Below are positions 52,938 to 64,000 of a stretch of DNA of 64,000 nucleotides, in pieces (within the stretch, counting starts at the first letter, position 1; each line of letters begins with the position of its first letter). The notes below the pieces were generated by a model that was not told the origin of the DNA, searched no databases, and saw nothing but the letters and a program-made list of their open reading frames with translations. The translations under genes were made by a program, and so were the position numbers. The DNA is from Tellurirhabdus bombi (GTDB lineage Bacteria > Bacteroidota > Bacteroidia > Cytophagales > Spirosomataceae): assembly GCF_021484805.1 (NCBI RefSeq), contig NZ_CP090557.1, positions 2,864,001 to 2,928,000 on the forward strand. The letters run 5' to 3'.

Positions 52938-53071
52938 TCTCTCTTATTTGTATTATTTACCCGCTTAACCTATCGTAAAAGCCAGCTATATCCTAGTGAA
53001 CTTTCAATATGTGTGCTACATATCAAAAATATTATTATATATAGTAAATCGATAATAGTATTAAAAGCGAT

Positions 53072-53911
53072 CTATTTAAAGAAATAATTCAATTTTGCCC
53101 TATCAATACTGTTAGCCTTTTTTAAGGCTAATTCTATTATATCATCAATGGATAGAGGATTAATATAGCTACTAGGAAATTCTGATACTCTCAAATAACT
53201 TATCTTTTTATTTTCAACTAAATAATTAAAAATAAAAGTATTTTCCTCAAATTGTTCATAAATGATAGCGTCATAAACTAAATCAAATGGATAACCCATA
53301 TTTAAATCATTTGAGAAGTTTTCTATTAAGCCGCTGCCTATTGACAGGCAATTAGTATGTTTATTTAATAAGTCAATATTTTTTCGAAGGAAAAATAGAG
53401 TTGGATCATAAGCGAAAAAGCCTGCATCAACAAAAGTTGCTTTTAATTCATTAATATTGTATGGTTGTGTAATCCGAATGTCAGAGCAAGAAGCTTTTAG
53501 TACATCAGCTATTTTAATATTATCATCAGTATTTGAGTTAATACCAAAAGAAGTAATCCTCTTTTCAGAGGAATTATATATAGGTAAGAATACTTTTTTG
53601 CTTACTGCTGATATCTTTTCTGTCCCATAAATATAATCTATATATTCAAATAGAAAAGTCATAAGGCTAGACTGGCCTTGATGAGCATTTTCTTTTATTC
53701 CTTTGAAATGATTAAGCATCTCAGTTACACTTAGTCCATATGCTAAGTTAGTAGCGATTACAGCACCTATTGATGTGCCAATTAAAAAATCAAAATGCTT
53801 AGAAAAGCTGATGTTAAGCTCTTTCTCAATATATGAAATTATATGCAAAGAATATACACCCTTCACACCTCCAGCATCAAGCGATAGTATGTTTTTATTT
53901 TTGGTCTTCAT
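53072..53911 (-). CDS. patatin-like phospholipase
   Basis: 279 residues from the ATG at 53911 (MKTKNKNILSLDAGGVKG); longer starts run back through the upstream gene. The oxyanion loop is DAGGVKG (12-18), the nucleophile elbow GTSIGA has Ser47, and the second catalytic residue is Asp162 in VDAGF. All key patatin residues are present, so it is probably an active lipase. The gene is visibly AT-rich next to the surrounding genes. It overlaps the upstream membrane-protein gene by 17 nt. Patatins of this size serve as membrane-degrading effectors in several anti-phage systems. Confidence 0.87.
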   Translation of the reverse strand: MKTKNKNILSLDAGGVKGVYSLHIISYIEKELNISFSKHFDFLIGTSIGAVIATNLAYGLSVTEMLNHFKGIKENAHQGQSSLMTFLFEYIDYIYGTEKISAVSKKVFLPIYNSSEKRITSFGINSNTDDNIKIADVLKASCSDIRITQPYNINELKATFVDAGFFAYDPTLFFLRKNIDLLNKHTNCLSIGSGLIENFSNDLNMGYPFDLVYDAIIYEQFEENTFIFNYLVENKKISYLRVSEFPSSYINPLSIDDIIELALKKANSIDRAKLNYFFK

Positions 53912-54599
53912 AATTCCAATAATAATCAAACCAATGGTTATAGAATGAAAAATAATGGTTAGTGATTTTATTTTTAATTTTGTGCTCAATATATATATAT
54001 GGTTTATTTGAACCATACATTTTATCATTTGTAATTTCAGTAAAGCCCAAGAAAAGATATTTATTATTAATCATCAAGCCATGGAAAACTAATGGAAAAT
54101 CATATTTTCGAGCAGCAAACTTAATGTTTTGTCTGGTTTTATTCTTTAGTAAAAGTAAATCTAATCTTTTGTGAGATGATTTTATAAATTCAGATTGTAT
54201 GTTACTATCTCCATTTATTAAGGGAGCAATATGATTTGAATCAGAATTTATTATTAGGCCTCTATACGAAAATGAAAGCTTATTGCTTTTGTTGTACATA
54301 TCATCTGCAAGATTAGCTAGATCTGGTAATATCTTTTCTAGATCTAAACCAACATTCTTAATTTGAATCGGATATCCTTTGTTAAACTCATCTTGTAATA
54401 TTTGTTTTAATTTCTTCCACATATCATCGTAATTTTCCATGACATCTAGGGAAGGATTAAATTTGTATAAATTTTTTGCTACTCCTTTTAATGAAATATT
54501 TCTTACAAACAGAGTAAGGACAGCAGCTATTCCACCTATTATTGTAAAAATGCTAGATAAGTTTCCAAGACCAAATAGGTCAAACGGCTTCGCTTCCAT
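53895..54599 (-). CDS. membrane-anchored protein upstream of the patatin gene
   Basis: 234 residues. One transmembrane helix lies near residues 16-33 (IFTIIGGIAAVLTLFV). The soluble part ends in a pattern with DLLLLKN, then YDFPLVFHGLMINNKYLFLGF, then YIYIEH and NHWFDYYWNY, which recalls a PLD-like/DUF5919-type sensor fold found in other bacterial proteins. There is no HKD catalytic motif, so it would be a binding rather than cleaving domain. It overlaps the patatin start by 17 nt; the two are AT-rich and clearly a unit. Possible sensor for the lipase. Confidence 0.65.
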   Translation of the reverse strand: MEAKPFDLFGLGNLSSIFTIIGGIAAVLTLFVRNISLKGVAKNLYKFNPSLDVMENYDDMWKKLKQILQDEFNKGYPIQIKNVGLDLEKILPDLANLADDMYNKSNKLSFSYRGLIINSDSNHIAPLINGDSNIQSEFIKSSHKRLDLLLLKNKTRQNIKFAARKYDFPLVFHGLMINNKYLFLGFTEITNDKMYGSNKPYIYIEHKIKNKITNHYFSFYNHWFDYYWNYEDQK

Positions 54600-54607
54600 A
54601 TTTTTAT

Positions 54608-54615
54608 TATATTTG
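54608..54615 (+). promoter_or_regulatory. -7 box for the 54632 gene
   Basis: TATATTTG, an exact TAnnTTTG, 16 nt before the ATG at 54632 in the short divergent gap. Confidence 0.5.
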
Positions 54616-54631
54616 ATTAAAAGCTAAAAAA

Positions 54632-54877
54632 ATGAACTACAAGATAGAATATCCAGTATTTGAAAGTGAGTGGGAGGAGAGCCGCTTCATCAATTGGTGC
54701 AATGGACATCTCTTGTTTAAGGATTACCTGATTTCAGTCGAGGACTTAAATATCAGAGGGTATATAAACAGGAATCTACAAAAAGGAGACGTCAAATTTA
54801 GTTTGATACTTGAGTATACAAATATCAACACATTAGATGACGTTGAGTCAATTGTAGAAACTATAGAACAGAGATAG
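54632..54877 (+). CDS. 81-residue protein of unknown function
   Basis: 81 residues, acidic and aromatic-rich (EYPVFESEWEESRFINWCNGHLLF), no recognised domain. It is transcribed away from the membrane/patatin pair with only 32 nt between starts, so they may share regulation. AT-rich like that pair. It could be a third component of the cassette or an unrelated phage gene. Confidence 0.55.
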   Translation: MNYKIEYPVFESEWEESRFINWCNGHLLFKDYLISVEDLNIRGYINRNLQKGDVKFSLILEYTNINTLDDVESIVETIEQR

Positions 54878-55603
54878 TAATTAAAGTCACAAAGCCCTTA
54901 CCTACTTGAATGTTCAAATAAATAGAGCTTTTGTTGAATGAATAATTTTCGCTAGCACCTTAAAGTAAATTTTAACCAATCTTGTTAGCTCACAAATATT
55001 AACAAGATAGTATGATTCGTCAATTTATATATTTTCATTTTATCAGTACAGAAATAACTACGTTTTTATCATACGGTAAAAAGTGATTATACTTTGTAGA
55101 TATATCAAGGGATTAAGAATATTTAAAAAATATACTATGTTGTGTTTTTTTTATTGTCTTTGGGTTACAAACCTAAATTAAATATGACAAATAAAGGGGA
55201 GGGTGTTTGTCTTATATTGTATTTGTGTTTACAATAGATTTAGAAAGTAGTACTAGCCATGCACAAAGTAATTTGCAGGCCGATTCTTCAACATTAGTAG
55301 AAAATTATTCAGTGATCAGGTAGTATAAAGATTTATTCAAAAGACCTCTTCTGATCTTTTAAGTATACATTAAAATATGTTAATGTAACTAGTTGTTGCA
55401 TACTATAACGAATCATCTAAATCGATATTATTTTGTAATTGTATATGTATTGATATTTATAAGTACAAGTGTATATTTGCCTACCGCTATTAGCGCCGTA
55501 AAACTTGTACTTGAACGTTATAGGAAAAGATCAGAAGCCCGGCTGATACCCACAGCGCGGGCATATTCTGTACACGGCATAAAGGCGGCTACTATCTTTT
55601 AGT
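54878..55603. other. 726-nt AT-rich non-coding region with phage promoter
   Basis: No ORF above about 25 codons with sensible sequence on the plus strand. A frame at 55393-55602 is open but its promoter box lies inside it, so it is not called. A perfect 9-bp inverted repeat, ATCTTGTTA (54979-54987) with TAACAAGAT (55000-55008), occurs early. Candidates are a late promoter region, a small RNA or a packaging site. Confidence 0.5.
55450..55479 (+). promoter_or_regulatory. probable promoter of the packaging/tail operon
   Basis: TTG (55450-55452) and TATATTTG (55472-55479) are 19 nt apart, a good Bacteroidota match. The next start is the terminase small subunit at 55604, giving a leader of about 120 nt. 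Confidence 0.55.
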
Positions 55604-56068
55604 ATGCCAGCGCCAGAAGGAAATCAGTTTTGGAAGATACGAAGTAAGCATGGCCGTGATAAGCTATTTGCTACTCCTGATTTGCTTTGGGAGGCAGCAG
55701 CAGAGTATTTCGAATGGTGCGACGCTAATCCGTGGGTTAAAGTAGATTTCAAAGGAAAAGACGCTGAACGGGTACAACTTCCTACCTCAAGACCCTACAC
55801 CATTGAAGCCTTTTGCTTGTACTGTAATACGACGAGTAGTTGGTTTCGAGAGTTCAGAAAGAACGCTCCTGAAGATTTTTTGTCGGTCATTACGCGTATA
55901 GAAGAGATCATTCGAAATCAAAAGTACGAGGGGGCAGTTGTAGGCGCTTACAATGCCAACATCATCTCCCGTGATCTCGGATTAAGTGAGAAATTCGAGC
56001 AGACCGGGTCGGTCACCATCAATGTGAAACGTCAACGCAAAGAACGACCGAAACACGATGGAGATTGA
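55604..56068 (+). CDS. phage terminase small subunit
   Basis: 154 residues. The N-terminus APEGNQFWKIRSKHGRDKLF and the middle AAEYFEWCDANPW, YTIEAFCLYCNTTSSWFREFRKN, then KYEGAVVGAYNANIISRDLGL match the P22 gp3-like small terminase in Bacteroidota phages. It recognises phage DNA and delivers it to the large subunit. It overlaps the large subunit start by 11 nt. Confidence 0.88.
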   Translation: MPAPEGNQFWKIRSKHGRDKLFATPDLLWEAAAEYFEWCDANPWVKVDFKGKDAERVQLPTSRPYTIEAFCLYCNTTSSWFREFRKNAPEDFLSVITRIEEIIRNQKYEGAVVGAYNANIISRDLGLSEKFEQTGSVTINVKRQRKERPKHDGD

Positions 56069-57323
56069 CCTGATCCTGCCCGAACTACACGAAGCGCAAC
56101 AATACATTGTTGACAATGCTCTTCGCTTCAACGCGCTTCGCTGCGGACGGCGCTTTGGAAAGAGTGACTTAGCCAAAGACCTGCTTATCGAAACGGCGCT
56201 GGATCATTCCATGTCAGCGGCCTACTTCAACGCTACCTATAAACTGATGGCTCAGTTCTGGGACGAGTTCAACGATATGATTGAACCGATTCGAACGGAC
56301 AAGGATGAGCAGCAAAAGACTATCTGGTTGCTGGGTGGTGGTCGAATTGACTTCTGGTCACTTCAGGATAAGAACGCTGGTCGTGGTCGGAAGTACAAAC
56401 GGGTGATTGTTGATGAGGCGGCCATGGCGGATGATTTAGAAACCGCCTGGACGCAGTGTATTCGGCCAACACTAACAGACTTCAAAGGAGACGCCTTTTT
56501 TATGTCGACGCCGAAGGGTCGGCAGAACTACTTCTACAAGTTGTGTCAAAATGGAGGCATGAAGCCGGGGTGGAAGGAATTTCATTATAAAACCGTCGCT
56601 AACCCGTACATCGATCCGGCGGAGGTCCTGGATGCCAAAAACGATTTGGATCTATTAACCTTTCAGCAGGAGTACGAAGCCGAGTTTGTAGAGCTGGCGG
56701 GTAATCTCTACTTCAAGATCAAAGAGGCGGTCAATCTCAAAACCGGTACAGTTTTCGATCCGAAGCAACCGGTTTACGTAAGCATGGACTTTAACAAGGT
56801 GAATTCGGTGACCATTCGTCAAAAGCAGAATGGCGCGCTGGTTTATCTGGAAGAGATTCATCAGGGTGGGGATGAGGAAGATTTAGAGGCGATCTGTAAG
56901 CAACTGGCTACCCGGTTCGGTCGCTACTTAATCATGTTTACGGGTGATGCATCCGGTAACAGTGCTTCTGCCTATACGACCGGCAATAAATCTGCCTGGA
57001 GCCTTATCAAAGGCTACATGGCCAAGTATGGCGCTAACTTCTGTGACTATATGGCCGTTCCTCTGAGCAATCCCTCGACAGCTAGTAGTCGATTCATCTG
57101 CAACTCGCTTATCAAGCACTATGGTGCAAAACTTATTATCGATCGGGATAAATGCCCCATTCTGGCTTCTGATGTAGTCCGAATGAAAACAGCCTCGGAT
57201 GGAGGTTTAGATAAGCCTGACTGTGATAAGTATGACTATGGTCATATAGGCGATTGCTTCCGCTACGACCTGGTAAACTTCGAATACACCACTTTCAAAG
57301 AAATCAGCAAGACAGCATGGTAA
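56058..57323 (+). CDS. phage terminase large subunit
   Basis: 421 residues. Walker A is GRRFGKS (30-36), Walker B is RVIVDE (Asp119-Glu120). The C-terminal RNase H-like nuclease has Asp residues in YVSMDFNK, TGDASG and GHIGDCFRYD. It pumps DNA into the prohead and cuts it. Length is near the family norm. The following small gene starts within its last codons. Confidence 0.94.
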   Translation: MEIDLILPELHEAQQYIVDNALRFNALRCGRRFGKSDLAKDLLIETALDHSMSAAYFNATYKLMAQFWDEFNDMIEPIRTDKDEQQKTIWLLGGGRIDFWSLQDKNAGRGRKYKRVIVDEAAMADDLETAWTQCIRPTLTDFKGDAFFMSTPKGRQNYFYKLCQNGGMKPGWKEFHYKTVANPYIDPAEVLDAKNDLDLLTFQQEYEAEFVELAGNLYFKIKEAVNLKTGTVFDPKQPVYVSMDFNKVNSVTIRQKQNGALVYLEEIHQGGDEEDLEAICKQLATRFGRYLIMFTGDASGNSASAYTTGNKSAWSLIKGYMAKYGANFCDYMAVPLSNPSTASSRFICNSLIKHYGAKLIIDRDKCPILASDVVRMKTASDGGLDKPDCDKYDYGHIGDCFRYDLVNFEYTTFKEISKTAW

Positions 57324-57517
57324 AACACTACTTAATAGCCGATTGGCTACTCACCATCGTCGTTCTCATCCTGGCTTTGTGGTCGGCTGCACTGCTGGTT
57401 TACGGCGTGTTCTGGGCTATCGAGCGTCGCACTGTCCGTTTTCGAAGCAAGTACAAAGATGATGAGTACGAGTGTATTACTGACTGGGACACGATTTTAA
57501 GCAAGCAAGATGACTAA
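57317..57517 (+). CDS. 66-residue membrane protein
   Basis: Starts at the ATG inside the terminase stop region (57317), giving MVKHYLIADWLLTIVVLILALW with one transmembrane helix (residues about 9-33), then a basic and acidic tail (RTVRFRSKYKDDEYE). An open frame 21 codons longer exists but would overlap the terminase in another frame. It overlaps the next gene by 8 nt. Not a recognised holin, but the size and one helix would allow that. Confidence 0.6.
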   Translation: MVKHYLIADWLLTIVVLILALWSAALLVYGVFWAIERRTVRFRSKYKDDEYECITDWDTILSKQDD

Positions 57518-58487
57518 TCCATTTACTACCCTTGTCGGACTGAAAGACGTCACCACAGCCGTCAGCTACGTCAATGATCTGCCTGGTCTTTCGACTGAGC
57601 TCGTCGAAGCCTTGGAAACCAGCGATGCGCCGGATGCCAAAGCTGTCTGGGACCGTACGCACCGGGCCGCCCTTGATCGGACGATCTCTGAAATTGAGGG
57701 ACTGTTGGCCAAAGAAGCCAACTACAACTCCGTTCTGGCACAAATGGAACAGCCGCAACCGCTAGACGGGGTTTCGGAGCCTGCCCTTTGCTTCAACGGA
57801 GTCACTATTGAGGTTCCTGCTTCGCCAAACAGCCGGTTGCGCTTAATGAACCTGACGTTCATGGCCAACATCGAGTCATCAGTAAATGCTGAACTCGTTA
57901 TCATCGATTTAAAGCGCAAGCCGCATCGGGAGCTTCAGCGTATGACTCACTTGGTCCTGCCCGGTGTCAATACGTTGCCAATTGGTATTGATCATAACAT
58001 TGCTCTCTTAGAAAGCCCTCGCCTTTTTATTGGCATTAAGTCAACGTCTTTGTCACTAGTCAAGTTGTCTGAGCCAACGTGGAGTGTGTGTAACGACTCG
58101 TACAAGGTAGCTAAAGCACAGTATGTTGAAAGTGTAGCAGCATGCATAACGAACGAGAACCTACCGGCTTGTTACGTCTACCTCGAAGCTGAGCACCAGC
58201 GTACCCTGGCCGCAGTACTGCCCCGTTTCGCTCAGCAGTTGCGCTTTGCCTACCTGAATCTTTGTGGATCACTCCTGATGACGGAAAAATTAGGCTCGCC
58301 CAACTTCAACCTGTTCACCAACACGAACCGCGAATTCACTATTGAGCAGGAAGCCGCATTGGAAAAGCAGTTCAAGTCGTCCTTGAAGCCGGTCGTTCGA
58401 CTCATTAGGGATCACCTGATGCAGGTCGGCAATCTGAAGCCCAACGCTGATGACCAGGCCGGGTACTATAGCGGCTCATTCGTTTAA
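57510..58487 (+). CDS. 325-residue phage protein of unknown function
   Basis: 325 residues, no signal peptide or obvious transmembrane helix. The N-terminal 100 residues are acidic and helical (LSTELVEALETSDAPDAKAVW), the middle is beta-rich (MTHLVLPGVNTLPIGIDHNI), and the C-terminus is helical. Where a portal protein would usually sit, it does not match the portal or capsid folds I know. Possibly a structural protein of a divergent head. Confidence 0.5.
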   Translation: MTNPFTTLVGLKDVTTAVSYVNDLPGLSTELVEALETSDAPDAKAVWDRTHRAALDRTISEIEGLLAKEANYNSVLAQMEQPQPLDGVSEPALCFNGVTIEVPASPNSRLRLMNLTFMANIESSVNAELVIIDLKRKPHRELQRMTHLVLPGVNTLPIGIDHNIALLESPRLFIGIKSTSLSLVKLSEPTWSVCNDSYKVAKAQYVESVAACITNENLPACYVYLEAEHQRTLAAVLPRFAQQLRFAYLNLCGSLLMTEKLGSPNFNLFTNTNREFTIEQEAALEKQFKSSLKPVVRLIRDHLMQVGNLKPNADDQAGYYSGSFV

Positions 58488-58510: not shown

Positions 58511-58750
58511 ATGAAAGCATCCGAAGCGAAAAGGCTTGCAGAGCAGGCAAAAGAGAAAGTTGAACCCATTGATCAGGCGCAACTCGACCGCATCTATCAG
58601 GACATCCAAGTTCATGCCAATAATGGCGCTGTCCAACTTGAAACCTATGAAGTGATAAAGAAACCCGTCTTGGATCGACTTGAACAGGATGGTTATAAAA
58701 TCATTTCTGAACGAAGAATTGGCGGTAAGCGGACTATTCGCTGGCAATAA
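58511..58750 (+). CDS. 79-residue protein of unknown function
   Basis: 79 residues, mostly charged helices (EAKRLAEQAKEKVEPIDQAQLDRIYQD) and a short C-terminal beta hairpin (ISERRIGGKRTIRW). It lies between the 325-residue protein and the Acb2-like gene. No family is recognised. Confidence 0.5.
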   Translation: MKASEAKRLAEQAKEKVEPIDQAQLDRIYQDIQVHANNGAVQLETYEVIKKPVLDRLEQDGYKIISERRIGGKRTIRWQ

Positions 58751-58810: not shown

Positions 58811-59050
58811 ATGAGTCAAACTATCGGAGAAGAGCGCGTACGTATGGCGTTCAACCCATCTAAAACCGACGAAGTGTCGCAAATCAAACAGGATTCAGCC
58901 GCGCTGATCAACAAGATCAACGCGATTCCGGTACCGGAAAAGCTCGCCAATAATCCAGGCGAATTCCTGCGACTGAAAGCACTGGCCTTGACAGCCGTCG
59001 AAGAAGCGTCAATGTGGGCAGTCAAGGCGGCCACTATCCATCTGGGTTAA
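58811..59050 (+). CDS. Acb2/Tad1-hairpin (DUF7681)-like cyclic-nucleotide sponge candidate
   Basis: 79 residues with two helices predicted. GEERVRMAFNPSKTDEVSQIKQ at the N-terminus and FLRLKALALTAVEEASMWAVKAAT at the C-terminus match the recurrent Acb2/Vs.4 pattern (FNPS start, A...EEA.MWAVKA end) in order and spacing. Acb2 proteins assemble into hexamers that bind cyclic di- and trinucleotides and so block CBASS immunity. The match is from memory of the family, without a database search. It lies in the structural gene block, not next to known anti-defence genes. Confidence 0.72.
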   Translation: MSQTIGEERVRMAFNPSKTDEVSQIKQDSAALINKINAIPVPEKLANNPGEFLRLKALALTAVEEASMWAVKAATIHLG

Positions 59051-59094: not shown

Positions 59095-59394
59095 ATGTTT
59101 GTTCTCAATATCTCTCTTTTGGCCAGCATACTTCTGTCGCTGTCCACGCTGCTTTATCGCATGGTTCACCGGGATAATAAGCGGTTCGCTAAACCCTTAC
59201 TCATCAAAACTCCACCGGGTCGGCTGGGTACAGTGAAGATTGCAACCCTCCAGTTCTTGGAAGTGCTAATCAAGGCTATGATTAAGCTCTTCGGTGGTTC
59301 TGCCTGGCGCAGCGGGGGCTCATTGATTGCCTCTATGTTGGTGACTGCAATTTTGATGTCAGTCCTGTTTGGGCGGGGCATTTTACAAGCGTAG
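59095..59394 (+). CDS. 99-residue two-helix membrane protein
   Basis: Starts at the ATG at 59095 (MFVLNISLLASILLSLSTLLY). Two hydrophobic segments (about 3-21 and 75-95) flank a basic middle with RLGTVKIATLQFLEVLIKAMIKLFGG. The frame is open 27 codons upstream, overlapping the Acb2-like gene stop, so the later start is better. Possible holin-like or envelope protein; no family recognised. Confidence 0.5.
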   Translation: MFVLNISLLASILLSLSTLLYRMVHRDNKRFAKPLLIKTPPGRLGTVKIATLQFLEVLIKAMIKLFGGSAWRSGGSLIASMLVTAILMSVLFGRGILQA

Positions 59395-59483: not shown

Positions 59484-59651
59484 ATGACCGCTATCACTAT
59501 CACCTGTATTGTACTGAGCCTGATCATTGCTATCATTTTGACCACTGCGGTGGTGGATATGGAGCATGTGAATGGCCGGCGCTTCGTTCTTGGCGTTGCT
59601 CTATTGCTTTTACTGAACGCGATCAACCAAATCATTCTCATCTACCGCTGA
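59484..59651 (+). CDS. 55-residue two-helix membrane protein
   Basis: Read from the bases: 55 residues starting MTAITITCIVLSLIIAIILTTAVV, then a short polar turn and a second hydrophobic stretch (FVLGVALLLLLNAINQIILI). Its TGA overlaps the next ATG by one base (TGATG). Small two-helix proteins here may be holin or spanin parts, or small tail-operon membrane proteins. Confidence 0.6.
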   Translation: MTAITITCIVLSLIIAIILTTAVVDMEHVNGRRFVLGVALLLLLNAINQIILIYR

Positions 59652-60121
59652 TGTATTCATTCGAGTCAAACGCCGAAGATGTGTTCAGGGACCTGCTTCG
59701 ATCAGTCGAGCGTGCTGAGAATGGAATGCAGGACAACCTCCGCATCGCCGCTCATGATGCCCTGGCCATTATTGCGGATCGCGTCCAGCAGTCAGGGCAA
59801 GGGATCAACTCTCGGCTAGTTACCAAAGCAGTGATTCGAAGTGGCGTCTACTCCCGGCAGCATAGTAAGCGCCGGTCTGAGCGTGGAAGGCAAACGAACC
59901 ATGTGGATTTGACCCTGGAAGGCGATTTGATGCGGAATTGGGATGTGCTGTCTGTGTCTCCGAAAGAGGCTATCGTCGGCTTTCGGGATGATCGCTCAGC
60001 TGACATTGCAGGCTATCAGGAAGCCTACTACGGCCAACCGATTTTTGACCTGTCGGATAAAGAACAAAGCCAGATTGTAGACGGCATTGCTGAACGATTG
60101 ATAGATGATTTACGACAATGA
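59651..60121 (+). CDS. probable tail completion / HK97 gp10-like protein
   Basis: 156 residues. VRRAENGMQDNLRIAAHD-like N-terminal helix (actual text VERAENGMQDNLRIAAHD), then IIADRVQQSGQ and beta-rich text with DLMRNWDVLSVSPKEAIVGF, then a C-terminal helical region. The order and size resemble HK97 gp10-type tail completion proteins in prophages, which sit just before the tail terminator. It overlaps the next gene by 4 nt. Confidence 0.5.
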   Translation: MYSFESNAEDVFRDLLRSVERAENGMQDNLRIAAHDALAIIADRVQQSGQGINSRLVTKAVIRSGVYSRQHSKRRSERGRQTNHVDLTLEGDLMRNWDVLSVSPKEAIVGFRDDRSADIAGYQEAYYGQPIFDLSDKEQSQIVDGIAERLIDDLRQ

Positions 60122-60636
60122 TTAATGAACGAATTGAGCAGATCAATGCTCTGATTACCGAGGCGCTTGGCGAAAGAAATACTCAGGTTGTTGGTATAGC
60201 CAAAACCATGTTTGACCAGCAGACAAGCCGGCAAGGATTGTTTCTGCCTGATGGCAAGACCCGTATTACGCCTAACAACAAAATGGCCTGGCAATCCTGT
60301 CACTTGATGGCTGGTGGCCGGACGGCTAATTCGCGGCTATGGGGTACGCAGCGCTCCTACTTCTTCGGGCTCAATATGATCCTGATCGGTGTGTGCAAAT
60401 CGGCGTCCGGCCTCACAACTGCGTTATCCGCTTTATCGGAAATTGATTCGATTCTGGTTGAAGGCTTCGACAATGACACGCTGTCGGTGCTGGATCGCTA
60501 CTGGAAGCTGCCAGCCAACAAAGATCAGAATCACGATCCGGCATGGTGGGCATTTGCTATTCGCTACACCATTCAGGATGTGAGCGATGACGACTTTAAT
60601 GAATTCACCCACCTTATAGATAACTCAGACGTATGA
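60118..60636 (+). CDS. probable tail terminator-like protein
   Basis: 172 residues. The fold pattern (short helix, QTSRQGLFLPDGK, a hydrophobic helix MILIGVCKSASGLTTALSALSEIDSI, and a C-terminal WWAFAIRYTIQDVS strand) resembles phage tail terminator proteins by size and position. Four-nucleotide overlaps on both sides. The assignment is mainly from context. Confidence 0.42.
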   Translation: MINERIEQINALITEALGERNTQVVGIAKTMFDQQTSRQGLFLPDGKTRITPNNKMAWQSCHLMAGGRTANSRLWGTQRSYFFGLNMILIGVCKSASGLTTALSALSEIDSILVEGFDNDTLSVLDRYWKLPANKDQNHDPAWWAFAIRYTIQDVSDDDFNEFTHLIDNSDV

Positions 60637-61334
60637 TCAAAGCTTTTCGTGATGCACTTGAAGCCGGACTAATTGAACCAGCTAGCTTGCCTGATGGCAA
60701 ACCATTTATTGTCGAGGGTATTCAGTACTACCAAGCCACTGAAAAAGGAAGAAGCCTGATGATGTATCGGCATCATCGCTTTTCCGACCTCCTGCGCAGG
60801 CACGATATCTTCAAGCTGTCGGATGATTTGCTGACTACTTCGCTGCAAACGATGCAGCATAACCTCACCGTGGCGCTGGCTCAGTTTGATCTCGACTTTG
60901 AGCAGGCGCAGGATAACCTGCGTCGTTTTCTCTATACGGTCGAACACCTGGAACAGCGGCACAACTTTGGTCTGGACATCGCGCAGGTCTACGACATCGC
61001 GTCTGTCTGGTTCTTCTCCGAAGAGGAAGATCCTCAGGGCATAGATGCTGGATTGCATCAGAATAAAGTTGAGGCTTGGCTTCGTCACCCGCATCTCTAC
61101 GGACTATTCCTAAGCTTGCCGATCGGTAAGTTCGTGCCGGTTGAGGAGCTATTCGATCTCAAGACGCTGGAAAAGTTGCGAGACATGAACATTGCGGAGG
61201 TGATTGACCTGAATTTGATGGTGAAGGACCTAACGCCGGAAGATCAAGTGGCCCTCGATGCCCGTCGCAAAACGCTGCTTAATTACGAAGCGACCCTGAA
61301 AGCACTTACCACCCCTAACTCCGCCGCCGAATGA
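60633..61334 (+). CDS. tail-assembly chaperone candidate, copy 1
   Basis: 233 residues. It begins MIKAFRDALEAGLIEPASLPDGKPF and shares its whole layout with the next gene: a beta-rich start (PFIVEGIQYYQA), a helical middle, then an acidic WFFSEEEDPQG motif and RHPHLYGLFLSLPIG near the end. The two genes are tandem paralogues. Place before the tape measure gene suggests a tail-assembly chaperone. Overlaps of 4 nt on both sides. Confidence 0.5.
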   Translation: MIKAFRDALEAGLIEPASLPDGKPFIVEGIQYYQATEKGRSLMMYRHHRFSDLLRRHDIFKLSDDLLTTSLQTMQHNLTVALAQFDLDFEQAQDNLRRFLYTVEHLEQRHNFGLDIAQVYDIASVWFFSEEEDPQGIDAGLHQNKVEAWLRHPHLYGLFLSLPIGKFVPVEELFDLKTLEKLRDMNIAEVIDLNLMVKDLTPEDQVALDARRKTLLNYEATLKALTTPNSAAE

Positions 61335-62077
61335 TCAAAGCCTTTCAGGAAGCCCTAGAACAAGGGTTTATCCAAAAAGCCAGCCTACCCGATGGCCGTC
61401 CGTTTATTATAGGAGGAGTTCAGTATTACGAAGCTACTGGTAGTGGCACTAATTTAATGATGGGACGCTTCCACGCGTTCACGGACACGCTGCGTAAACA
61501 CGACACCTTGAAACTAAACAGCGAACTGTTTCGCGTTACCCTGCAAGGTTTTAAAAGCCTGATCCGTACGGCTCTTTCTCAGTACAGTATCGACCCGGAG
61601 CGGGCGCAGGAGAATATCCAGCAGTGCCAGTACACGTTGACTCGTCTCCGGGAGCGGCGCCTGTTGGGAATTGATGTGTCCATGATTTACGAAGCGGCGG
61701 CCATCTGGTTTTTTGGAGAGGATGAAGACCCGGCCACGGTAAGTTCGGATATCAACCAGAAGAAGATTGATGAGTGGCTACTTCATCCCGAATTGTACGC
61801 TTTTTTTTTGAACACGCCTTTCGGTCGCTTTCTACCCTCGTCCGGGCTTGTCGATCCCGGTACCCTGACCTATATCCAGAGCGTAAATCGGGAGGAGATA
61901 TTCAGATTGAGCATTCAGTTATTGAAATCACCGCAATCTGGGCTGACGAACGCCACGACTTCAGCTATCGAATCACTCAGGGAAACCCTGCTGCGATGCG
62001 ACAGTTTGATCGATTCACGGTTGAGCAGTACCACGACTACGCCGCCGCCTGGCTCCGGGATGAGCGACGAAAAGTAG
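61331..62077 (+). CDS. tail-assembly chaperone candidate, copy 2, with possible -1 frameshift
   Basis: 248 residues, paralogous to the gene before it (MIKAF start, ASLPDGRPFIIGG, IWFFGEDEDPATV, LLHPELYAFFLNTPFGRF). It contains a run of nine T at 61801-61809, read in frame as GCT TTT TTT TTG, which fits the T TTT TTT slippery heptamer. The -1 frame from there is open to 62139, past its own stop. Such a G/GT-type frameshift is typical of the gene before a phage tape measure. Confidence 0.52.
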   Translation: MIKAFQEALEQGFIQKASLPDGRPFIIGGVQYYEATGSGTNLMMGRFHAFTDTLRKHDTLKLNSELFRVTLQGFKSLIRTALSQYSIDPERAQENIQQCQYTLTRLRERRLLGIDVSMIYEAAAIWFFGEDEDPATVSSDINQKKIDEWLLHPELYAFFLNTPFGRFLPSSGLVDPGTLTYIQSVNREEIFRLSIQLLKSPQSGLTNATTSAIESLRETLLRCDSLIDSRLSSTTTTPPPGSGMSDEK

Positions 62078-62165: not shown

Positions 62166-64000
62166 ATGTCTTTTCGTCAGGAAAATGTCCGTGTCGTTAT
62201 TCAGTCTGTCTCTGATCTGCCTACCGTCGCGGAACAGTATGAGCAGTTAATTAGTCTGACTCAGCGGCAAGCGCAGGAATCTGCCAAAGCGGCGGCTTCT
62301 ATGAAAAGTGAATTTAGTAAGCTCACTGATGCGCAAAAGGCTGAACTGGCTCAACAGACCGCCACTCAGAAAGCCGAATTGCAGCAGCAAGGGGCGGCCC
62401 AACGTGCCGAACTGCAGCAGCAGAACACCGCTTTTCGGGCCGAGAAAGCGCAGGAAACCGCCGCTTTTAAAGCCGAGGAGGAACGAAAGACAGCCATTCA
62501 GAAGAATGAACTGTCGGAACGAAAAGCCTTACTGGATCAACAGACCTCGGCCACCAAAGCGGAAGCCCAGCAGCAGACGACAATTGTCCGCGGGGAACAG
62601 GAGCGCCAAACCGCCGCTCAAAAAGCCGAGTTGTCTGAGCGCAAGGCCTTACTCGACCAACAGACCGCCGTTGTAAAATCTGAAGTAGCCCAGCAGACCG
62701 CCGTTATTAAAGCCGAGCAGGATCGCCAAACCGCGATTCTTCGCGAAGAAGAGCGCCGTCGGACCATGCTCTTAAAGTCCGAACTGGCCGAAGCCAGAAC
62801 GGAGTATGGCAGCCTTACGGATACCGTGAAGGATTATGCCGCCGTGATTGCCGCCGCTTTCACCTTTGGCGAGATCAAGCAGTTCGGGATGGACGTTATC
62901 GATGCTAAATCGAAAATTGATCAACTGAAGATTGCGCTGGATGTGATGTTGGGAAGCAAACGCGAATCCAACGCAATCTATCAGGAGATTGTTCGCGTGG
63001 CCAAGGAAACCCCATTTACGTTAGAAGAATTAACCGAGAATGCGGTGAAGCTGAAAGGCTTCGGCGTCGAGACTAAAAACCTCATCCCGGATATGTTGGC
63101 CTTGGGGAACATGGCCGCAGCTGTGGGAAAAGACAAGCTCCCGCAGATGACTTTAGCCCTGGGACAGGTGGCCGCAACAGGCCGTTTAATGGGCGACGAG
63201 TTGAATCAATTCGTCGAGGCTGGTGTGCCCATGTATGACCTTTTGGCAGCCTCAATGGGCAAAACCCGGAAGGAGGTTGATGATTTGGCCAAGGCGCACC
63301 AGATCAGCTTCAAGGATATTGAGAAAGCCATTTTGGAGTCGTCCGAGAAGGGCGGCAAGTATTACCAGATGATGGCTCTCCAGTCGAAAACGCTGGGTGG
63401 CGAGGTGTCAAACCTGTCTGATCGCTTCTTTCTGGCTAAAGCGAAGATCGGAGACTTCTTCGAGGGTGAATTGAAGGGCGGAATCAAAATGTTGGGCGAC
63501 TTTATGGACGCCACCATTGGTTCGGATAACGCCATCAAGCGAACACTAAGCACCATTGCCTCAGCGGTTGCGGCATATGGTACCTGGCGAATAGCAACTA
63601 ACGCGCAGGCAATCGCTTCGACAGCCAATAAGGTAGTTACCGAGGCGTTAAGCTTGACCACCGGCACTTTAAACCTGGTGATGATCACAGCTACCCGTTC
63701 CACCGAGGGTTTCACCCGGGCGCAACAGGAATCGGCTGTAGCGGCTCGCTCCACGTGGGCAACCCTGGCCGCTAACCCTATCGGTGCTCTTGTAACAGTG
63801 GTTGGGCTGGCTGTGTCTGCCTACTTTGCTTTTCAGGCGGCAAACCAAAAAGTGACCGAGACGATGGGTGAGCAGGAGTACGCCCTAAAGCGGGAGCAGG
63901 AAGAAATGAATCGCCTGGCAGAGGCTGCTACGAACGCGTCCGATACAACCGGACGCCGAAAGCAGCTTATCGAGCAGTTGCTTGCCCGTTACCCAGATTA
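62166..64000 (+). CDS. phage tail tape measure protein, partial (3' end beyond window)
   Basis: Read from the bases: ATG at 62166, open for 611 codons to the window end. Residues about 55-220 are a long coiled coil with near-repeats KAEL/KNELSERKALLDQQT (62502 and 62622 are 120 nt apart). Residues about 250-430 match the tape-measure N-terminal domain (IYQEIVRVAKETPFTLEEL, LPQMTLALGQVAATGRLMGDELNQF, GVPMYDLLAASMGKTRKEV). A hydrophobic segment follows near 530-555. It sets tail length and helps DNA ejection. Confidence 0.9.
   Translation, partial: MSFRQENVRVVIQSVSDLPTVAEQYEQLISLTQRQAQESAKAAASMKSEFSKLTDAQKAELAQQTATQKAELQQQGAAQRAELQQQNTAFRAEKAQETAAFKAEEERKTAIQKNELSERKALLDQQTSATKAEAQQQTTIVRGEQERQTAAQKAELSERKALLDQQTAVVKSEVAQQTAVIKAEQDRQTAILREEERRRTMLLKSELAEARTEYGSLTDTVKDYAAVIAAAFTFGEIKQFGMDVIDAKSKIDQLKIALDVMLGSKRESNAIYQEIVRVAKETPFTLEELTENAVKLKGFGVETKNLIPDMLALGNMAAAVGKDKLPQMTLALGQVAATGRLMGDELNQFVEAGVPMYDLLAASMGKTRKEVDDLAKAHQISFKDIEKAILESSEKGGKYYQMMALQSKTLGGEVSNLSDRFFLAKAKIGDFFEGELKGGIKMLGDFMDATIGSDNAIKRTLSTIASAVAAYGTWRIATNAQAIASTANKVVTEALSLTTGTLNLVMITATRSTEGFTRAQQESAVAARSTWATLAANPIGALVTVVGLAVSAYFAFQAANQKVTETMGEQEYALKREQEEMNRLAEAATNASDTTGRRKQLIEQLLARYPD
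62502..62741 (+). repeat. two 120-nt imperfect repeats inside the tape measure gene
   Basis: The coiled-coil unit starting KNELSERKALLDQQT at 62502 recurs as KAELSERKALLDQQT at 62622, exactly 40 codons later, with many shared bases (for example GCCTTACT and CAACAGACC). A weaker, earlier copy begins at 62370 (KAELQQQ). The pattern points to tandem duplication within the tape measure. Confidence 0.75.

Follow-up and report, generated by a model that had tools for sequence, protein, structure and literature searches.

Does a small gene among the structural genes of a Bacteroidota prophage encode a sponge for the cyclic nucleotide signals of antiviral defence? The question is raised by a short ORF in a 64,000 nt stretch of Tellurirhabdus bombi DNA, in the following called the window. 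A sequence-only reading of this DNA had described the product as having the layout of Acb2, the protein that is named Vs.4 in phage T4. According to three papers (PMC12043709, PMC10286901, PMC11044969), the studied Acb2 proteins are hexamers that hold cyclic di- and trinucleotides uncut in two kinds of pocket.

Assignment to the Acb2 family

The ORF was found on the plus strand where the sequence-only reading had placed it; it has an ATG start and a product of 79 residues (Table 1). A Pfam search matched the product to PF24729.2, the Acb2/Tad1 hairpin family (DUF7681), with an E-value of 7.7e-12 and 45.7 bits compared to a curated cut-off of 27, i.e. the proposed membership is backed by a significant profile match. 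The match covers residues 15-75 of the protein and positions 3-57 of the 58 profile positions. As positive controls, PaMx33 Acb2 (ORF24) and T4 Acb2 (Vs.4) reached 66.1 and 71.4 bits on the same family. At E-values up to 10 the protein matched no Pfam family besides PF24729, and thus neither Tad2 (PF11195) nor Acb4 (PF13876), which are also phage nucleotide sponges. The 2023 defence-system library of PADLOC gave no match to it.

All 30 members of our alignment, i.e. the window protein, a second copy from the host genome and 28 viral relatives, matched PF24729. Comparing the profile of these 30 members with that of 25 Acb2 proteins of the PaMx33/T4 type provided a probability of 95.6 and an E-value of 1.1e-8 over 60 columns, with Lys26 paired to Lys26 and Lys72 to Arg85. 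In a single pairwise comparison by BLASTP, 13 of 30 residues were common to the window protein and Vs.4 (E 1e-5); the comparison with PaMx33 Acb2 was insignificant (E 0.10). Among the sequences of solved structures Vs.4 was recovered weakly, with an E-value of 0.78 when a single sequence was the query and, in second place, of 0.085 with the profile. Neither this match nor the top match of the profile search, the designed repeat protein 7mcd (E 5.7e-5), was given weight; the 7mcd score adds up from four identical weak repeats, each of which falls short by itself.

The ORF does not represent a chance reading frame, since PF24729 is matched above cut-off, relatives are encoded in 510 viral stretches and the second copy is conserved at the protein level. 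That the 79-residue protein is a member of the Acb2 family, in a divergent branch, is well supported by its sequence.

Table 1. Positions of the acb2-like gene, its predicted elements, the neighbouring genes in the window and the second copy in the host genome.
Feature	Position	Strand	Basis
acb2-like gene, 79 aa, Acb2/Tad1 hairpin domain	58811..59050	+	PF24729.2 + AlphaFold2 model
Short N-terminal helix, residues 5-9	58823..58837	+	DSSP on model
Phe14 codon, column of T4 Acb2 Tyr8 / PaMx33 Tyr11	58850..58852	+	MAFFT alignment through intermediates
First hairpin helix, residues 20-37, with invariant Lys26 (codon 58886-58888)	58868..58921	+	model + alignments
Second hairpin helix, residues 50-74, with conserved EASMWAVKAAT stretch	58958..59032	+	model + alignments
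Terminase small subunit	55604..56068	+	phrog_606 E 3.3e-40
Terminase large subunit	56058..57323	+	phrog_2 E 4.7e-31
Short ORF, hydrophobic N-terminal segment, exact start unsure	57254..57517	+	translation; no PHROGs match
325-aa protein	57510..58487	+	no match in PHROGs, Pfam, PADLOC
79-aa protein directly upstream of the acb2-like gene	58511..58750	+	phrog_28265 E 0.0033
99-aa hydrophobic protein directly downstream of the acb2-like gene	59095..59394	+	translation; no match
55-aa hydrophobic ORF	59484..59651	+	translation
Tail-like protein	59651..60121	+	phrog_6195 E 8.1e-5
Tape-measure protein, extends past window	62166..64000	+	PF20155 TMP_3 E 3.7e-29
Second acb2 copy, 75 aa	G000:C1:359914-360141		56/74 residues identical (76%) to window protein

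Compared to the known members, PaMx33 Acb2 (Pseudomonas phage; PDB 8h2x, 'Structure of Acb2') is likewise a single small domain with the PF24729 hairpin, and its Lys26 and C-terminal RxxxxxxT....M...(K/R)A pattern align with the window protein. It is longer, however (93 residues), and ends with a QPxxF tail that is missing here. With T4 Acb2 (PDB 7uq2) the window protein shares a nearly identical EASMWA(V/C)(K/R)A stretch, the C-terminal EASMWA..A agreeing letter for letter with Vs.4. Relatives from Flavobacterium phages (elemo and FCV/FCOV groups), which infect the same host phylum, are 47% identical over the whole protein; they are annotated as hypothetical proteins and lie near replication or recombination genes. 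Tad1 and the window protein share the Pfam name of their C-terminal hairpin. Tad1 carries an N-terminal beta-sheet domain, as stated in PMC12043709, whereas in the window protein the FNPS motif is preceded by just 13 residues, with no such domain.

Predicted fold and the putative pocket residues of the FNPS branch

Modelling with AlphaFold2 from the 30-sequence alignment resulted in a pLDDT of 95.2 and a pTM of 0.81. In the model DSSP assigns three helices (Table 1) and no strand, such that the two-helix hairpin expected by the sequence-only reading is confidently predicted. The Acb2 protomer itself consists of a short N-terminal helix and two long antiparallel helices, according to PMC12043709. 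Since the model is all-helical, with a short helix and a hairpin, the predicted layout is that of Acb2 rather than Tad1. Together with the PF24729 match, the predicted hairpin supports the Acb2-like reading of the protein.

A Foldseek search of viral models returned Acb2/Tad1 hairpin proteins as the best three matches, names that probably derive from the same Pfam family and are as such not independent of the PF24729 match. The top match (E 4.3e-5, TM 0.84 on the query) was the only one with an E-value below 0.001. Against the PDB, Foldseek found no match at E 0.001 or better and 8h2x was absent among the best 50; small helical hairpins are poor queries. The structural comparison with 8h2x_F gave a Z of 5.3 and an rmsd of 3.3 for 61 aligned residues, at rank 24 among tied unrelated hairpins.

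The layout ascribed to Acb2/Vs.4 had been based on two motifs, and both are present: FNPS at residues 14-17 and LTAVEEASMWAVKAAT at residues 60-75. FNPS, however, is foreign to the Acb2 proteins of PaMx33 and T4, which have GYRDLS and GYKPHT at this place. While the consensus of the 30 branch rows reads GExRVRxxFNPS...V..IK..xAxLI...RLKALAxT..EEAAMWAVKAAT, that of the PaMx33 type is MDNQHKKIKGYRDLSQxEIDLMNxIK...KTxLQTGxMxxVRAVAQPxSF. By its sequence FNPS is a mark of a divergent branch, not of the Acb2 proteins studied so far.

The two forms are connected by two intermediates from host-family genomes, GEQRIRKEYRPLTIEES and DRFRQQYTPVTDQQ, which match PF24729 at 42.8 and 51.2 bits. Since they join FNPS to GYRDLS, Phe14 can be aligned with T4 Tyr8 and PaMx33 Tyr11. 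This column contains Phe in 5 and Tyr in 7 rows of a 12-row MAFFT alignment that includes PaMx33, T4 and the intermediates, and within the branch alignment Phe14 is invariant (30/30 rows). Lys26 is kept throughout both alignments (12/12 and 30/30 rows); in PaMx33 Acb2 this residue is a ligand contact. The stretch from the aromatic residue to Lys26 is three residues shorter in the FNPS branch.

The T4 pocket has been probed by mutation: the Panoptes paper (PMC12657218) reports that binding of cyclic dinucleotides by T4 Acb2 is disrupted by the change Y8A, and describes Phe82 as stacking on the ligand. In the column of T4 Phe82 the window protein has Thr75 and PaMx33 has Ala. Since PaMx33 Acb2 is a proven Acb2, the absence of Phe82 does not exclude function, and this residue does not define the family. 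By its alignment Phe14 would be a natural variant of a pocket residue whose change to Ala kills binding in T4. If the branch binds such ligands, the Phe14 form would reveal which part of the tyrosine matters.

A third branch was seen at host-family loci (L238, L240-L245), with the pattern TFGQKAVGLxFNPSGDDAV...AQMWAVKALTWKD and one member carrying AQMRAVKALTWND. It is present in 7 of the 12 related loci examined, and the one member checked matched PF24729 at 33.3 bits.

Prophage setting, second copy and relatives

The acb2-like gene is separated by 60 nt from the 79-aa ORF upstream and by 44 nt from the 99-aa ORF downstream. All neighbours are on the plus strand and form a one-way run from the terminase subunits to tail-like and tape-measure genes, which continues beyond the window. 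The setting between small membrane-protein genes and tail genes given by the sequence-only reading was borne out by the translations, which show short hydrophobic ORFs on either side, and by the matches to phrog_6195 and PF20155. The gene is of phage or prophage origin, with terminase, tail and tape-measure genes around it and relatives in viral collections. The T4 gene differs in its setting, being found among the vs/regB genes, and the PaMx33 gene, which adjoins ORF23, a 'structural protein', runs in the opposite direction to the structural genes.

Two paralogue-like neighbours follow at 60633-61334 and 61331-62077 (both +), both beginning with MIKAF..ALE.G.I..ASLPDG.PFI..G.QYY.AT. For the first, searches of Pfam, PHROGs and PADLOC were all negative, as were those of PADLOC and Pfam for the second. 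In the host genome beyond the window, after the tail region, a 653-aa gene (L117:14349-16310) and a 385-aa gene (L117:18561-19718) are candidates for portal and capsid by size and order, with no PHROGs or Pfam match at the thresholds used. If they are portal and capsid, the head genes of this prophage would come after its tail genes.

The host genome contains exactly two matches to PF24729 at E 0.001 or better, the window gene and the second copy. The latter resides in another, mostly dissimilar prophage, where it follows a virion structural protein gene (phrog_7231, E 4e-38) and precedes a tape-measure gene (phrog_18891, E 1e-83). When 56 kb of the first prophage region and 60 kb of the second were aligned by blastn, no more than three matches reached E 1e-5: one in a recombinase-like gene, one of 741 nt, and one covering 206 nt of acb2, the flanks of which differ between the prophages. 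Between the copies the codon positions 1, 2 and 3 are identical in 59, 65 and 29 of 74 codons; the nonsynonymous distance is 0.18 and synonymous sites are saturated. The concentration of change at third codon positions indicates that the protein has been kept by selection. Between these two prophages acb2 behaves as a movable cargo gene.

The 510 viral stretches with relatives were identified by search patterns, and the best 80 of the 510 were taken. The genome collection provided 29 loci, among them Spirosoma oryzae (61%), Dyadobacter, Paraflavitalea and many Alphaproteobacteria; 7 of the 29 are copies within one Rhodobacteraceae metagenome assembly. The seven contigs concerned (L102-L108) share blocks of 10-20 kb at 99.2-99.8% identity, a pattern that resembles multiple copies or integrations of a single phage. 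Within the host family, 14 of 222 genomes have a PF24729 match.

Finding the gene in a Bacteroidota prophage had been regarded as widening the known context of the family. The position between terminase and tail genes is real, but since Flavobacterium phages make up 146 of the 150 phage records matched at E 0.01, a Bacteroidota setting was already in the databases. Our literature search, with most subscription papers outside its scope, found no paper on Acb2 in Bacteroidota nor on PF24729/DUF7681; the on-topic work on anti-CBASS proteins in Bacteroidetes concerns Acb4 and its homologues in phages of this phylum. We do not claim the Bacteroidota branch as unpublished: the member itself is new, the family is known.

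A general rule that acb2 belongs to structural operons was rejected, as relatives also adjoin replication, lysis and nucleotide-metabolism genes. For 150 of the 186 listed immediate neighbours, with figures from the 25 commonest families, genes for heads and DNA packaging predominated, but portal, head protease, endolysin, endonuclease and PhoH were each found in 3/150, and further families comprise nucleases, ribonucleotide reductase and chaperonin. When 30 genes of the two prophages were compared with 109 loci, almost nothing recurred: apart from a few single matches, the only repeat was TerL of the second prophage (9/109 loci). Among 92 neighbours in related genomes, drawn from 12 of the 15 PF24729 matches in the host family outside the own genome, terminase, HNH endonuclease and others each occurred in at most 2.

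Some relatives lie close to a second sponge gene, and one of the immediate neighbours scanned was itself a Tad2-like protein. Tad2-like genes (PF11195) were detected in 4 of 50 viral records of the FNPS branch (50 out of an initial list of 67; two of the four positive ones are fragments, 8.5 and 10.7 kb long). They are located on the same strand as acb2 at distances of 17, 33, 251 and 596 nt (L025, L057, L063 and L072). No Tad2 was found in the window's own genome. The association independently supports an anti-defence role. The Tad2-like and acb2 pairs are possibly sponge cassettes, which would suggest ready-made sets against several signalling defences.

Proposed role and its alternatives

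Taking family, predicted fold and setting together, we consider it likely that the gene product is a phage sponge of the Acb2 family carried among late genes. By analogy to the studied members, the 79-residue hairpin would assemble into a small oligomer (a hexamer in those members), the pockets of which would hold cyclic oligonucleotide alarm signals from CBASS or related cyclases. Suicide effectors would then stay off and the phage could finish its cycle. Given the position of the gene within the terminase-to-tail run, the sponge gene is probably expressed along with the particle genes once the prophage is induced; the late-gene placement fits an action after prophage induction. Oligomer, ligand, binding, late expression and anti-defence effect are all steps that we infer.

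A target for such a sponge exists in the host family, since the CD-NTase domain PF18144 was detected in 48 of 222 genomes, 46 of them over the cut-off. It was found in 8 of 14 genomes with PF24729 compared to 40 of 208 others (Fisher P 0.003), and over the cut-off in 7 of 14 compared to 39 of 208 (P 0.011), both without control for kinship and genome size. We take this co-occurrence as a hint only.

The sponge could also belong to the same family and serve another signal, for example Thoeris-type cyclic ADP-ribose, the cyclic oligoadenylate of type III CRISPR, or trinucleotides only. PF24729 also covers the hairpin of Tad1, which holds Thoeris-type cyclic ADP-ribose, and the putative pocket region deviates from that of the studied members by the Tyr-to-Phe change, the shorter stretch before Lys26 and the loss of T4 Phe82; in addition, no PF18144 cyclase was found in the host genome itself. 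On the other hand Lys26 does not vary, an aromatic ring is retained at position 14, the N-terminal part of Tad1 is missing, and PF18144 is commoner in genomes with PF24729, as given above with its lack of control. Overall we regard another signal as unlikely.

Much less probable still is that the product serves in head or tail assembly, as a small protein with an Acb2-like helical hairpin by coincidence. Such a protein would suit the location between terminase and tail genes here and the one flanked by virion-protein and tape-measure genes in the second prophage, and the minor head protein phrog_13900 is the commonest PHROGs family among the immediate neighbours of relatives (7/150). An assembly protein would however hardly be one of three DNA stretches common to two prophages, with unlike flanks, nor would it be expected beside the ERF and exonuclease genes for recombination of the Flavobacterium elemo phages or the SSB gene of Flavobacterium phage FCV-1.01; moreover, the profile match is to characterised Acb2 proteins. 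That the gene is a decayed or unused remnant of a defective prophage is hardly credible given its open frame and copies that differ mostly at third codon positions.

Within the favoured reading as an Acb2-family sponge, the window gene itself is a fairly ordinary example. If its branch binds CBASS signals, the range of proven sponges would extend to many 'hypothetical' phage proteins, including those of Flavobacterium columnare phages. We advance only tentatively, as a rather doubtful proposal, that the FNPS branch forms a separate, movable arm of Acb2 that has its own ligand range and is distributed over phages of Bacteroidota and Alphaproteobacteria. At times it would be paired with Tad2 in a two-gene cassette, and in certain prophages it would be wired into the late structural genes, such that the sponge would be made, or even packaged, along with the CBASS-triggering particles.

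The window also contains an A+T-rich island immediately upstream of the terminase genes, with 26-33% GC over 53000-55499 compared to 45-54% around it. Its minus-strand interval 53072-54599 carries a patatin-like phospholipase gene (PF01734, E 6.3e-14; PADLOC effector 'Phospholipase', E 8.7e-30), beside which no cyclase was found, and, overlapping it, the gene of a 234-aa orphan with a hydrophobic N-terminus (model pLDDT 34.5). For the orphan no clear relative emerged: one broken 33% match besides itself was obtained in 395 genomes and none in viral contigs or plasmids. The nearest solved structures of the phospholipase are a cUMP-AMP-activated phospholipase (E 2.1e-12) and CapV (E 5.8e-9). The prophage may carry both a CBASS-like effector and a sponge for CBASS signals.
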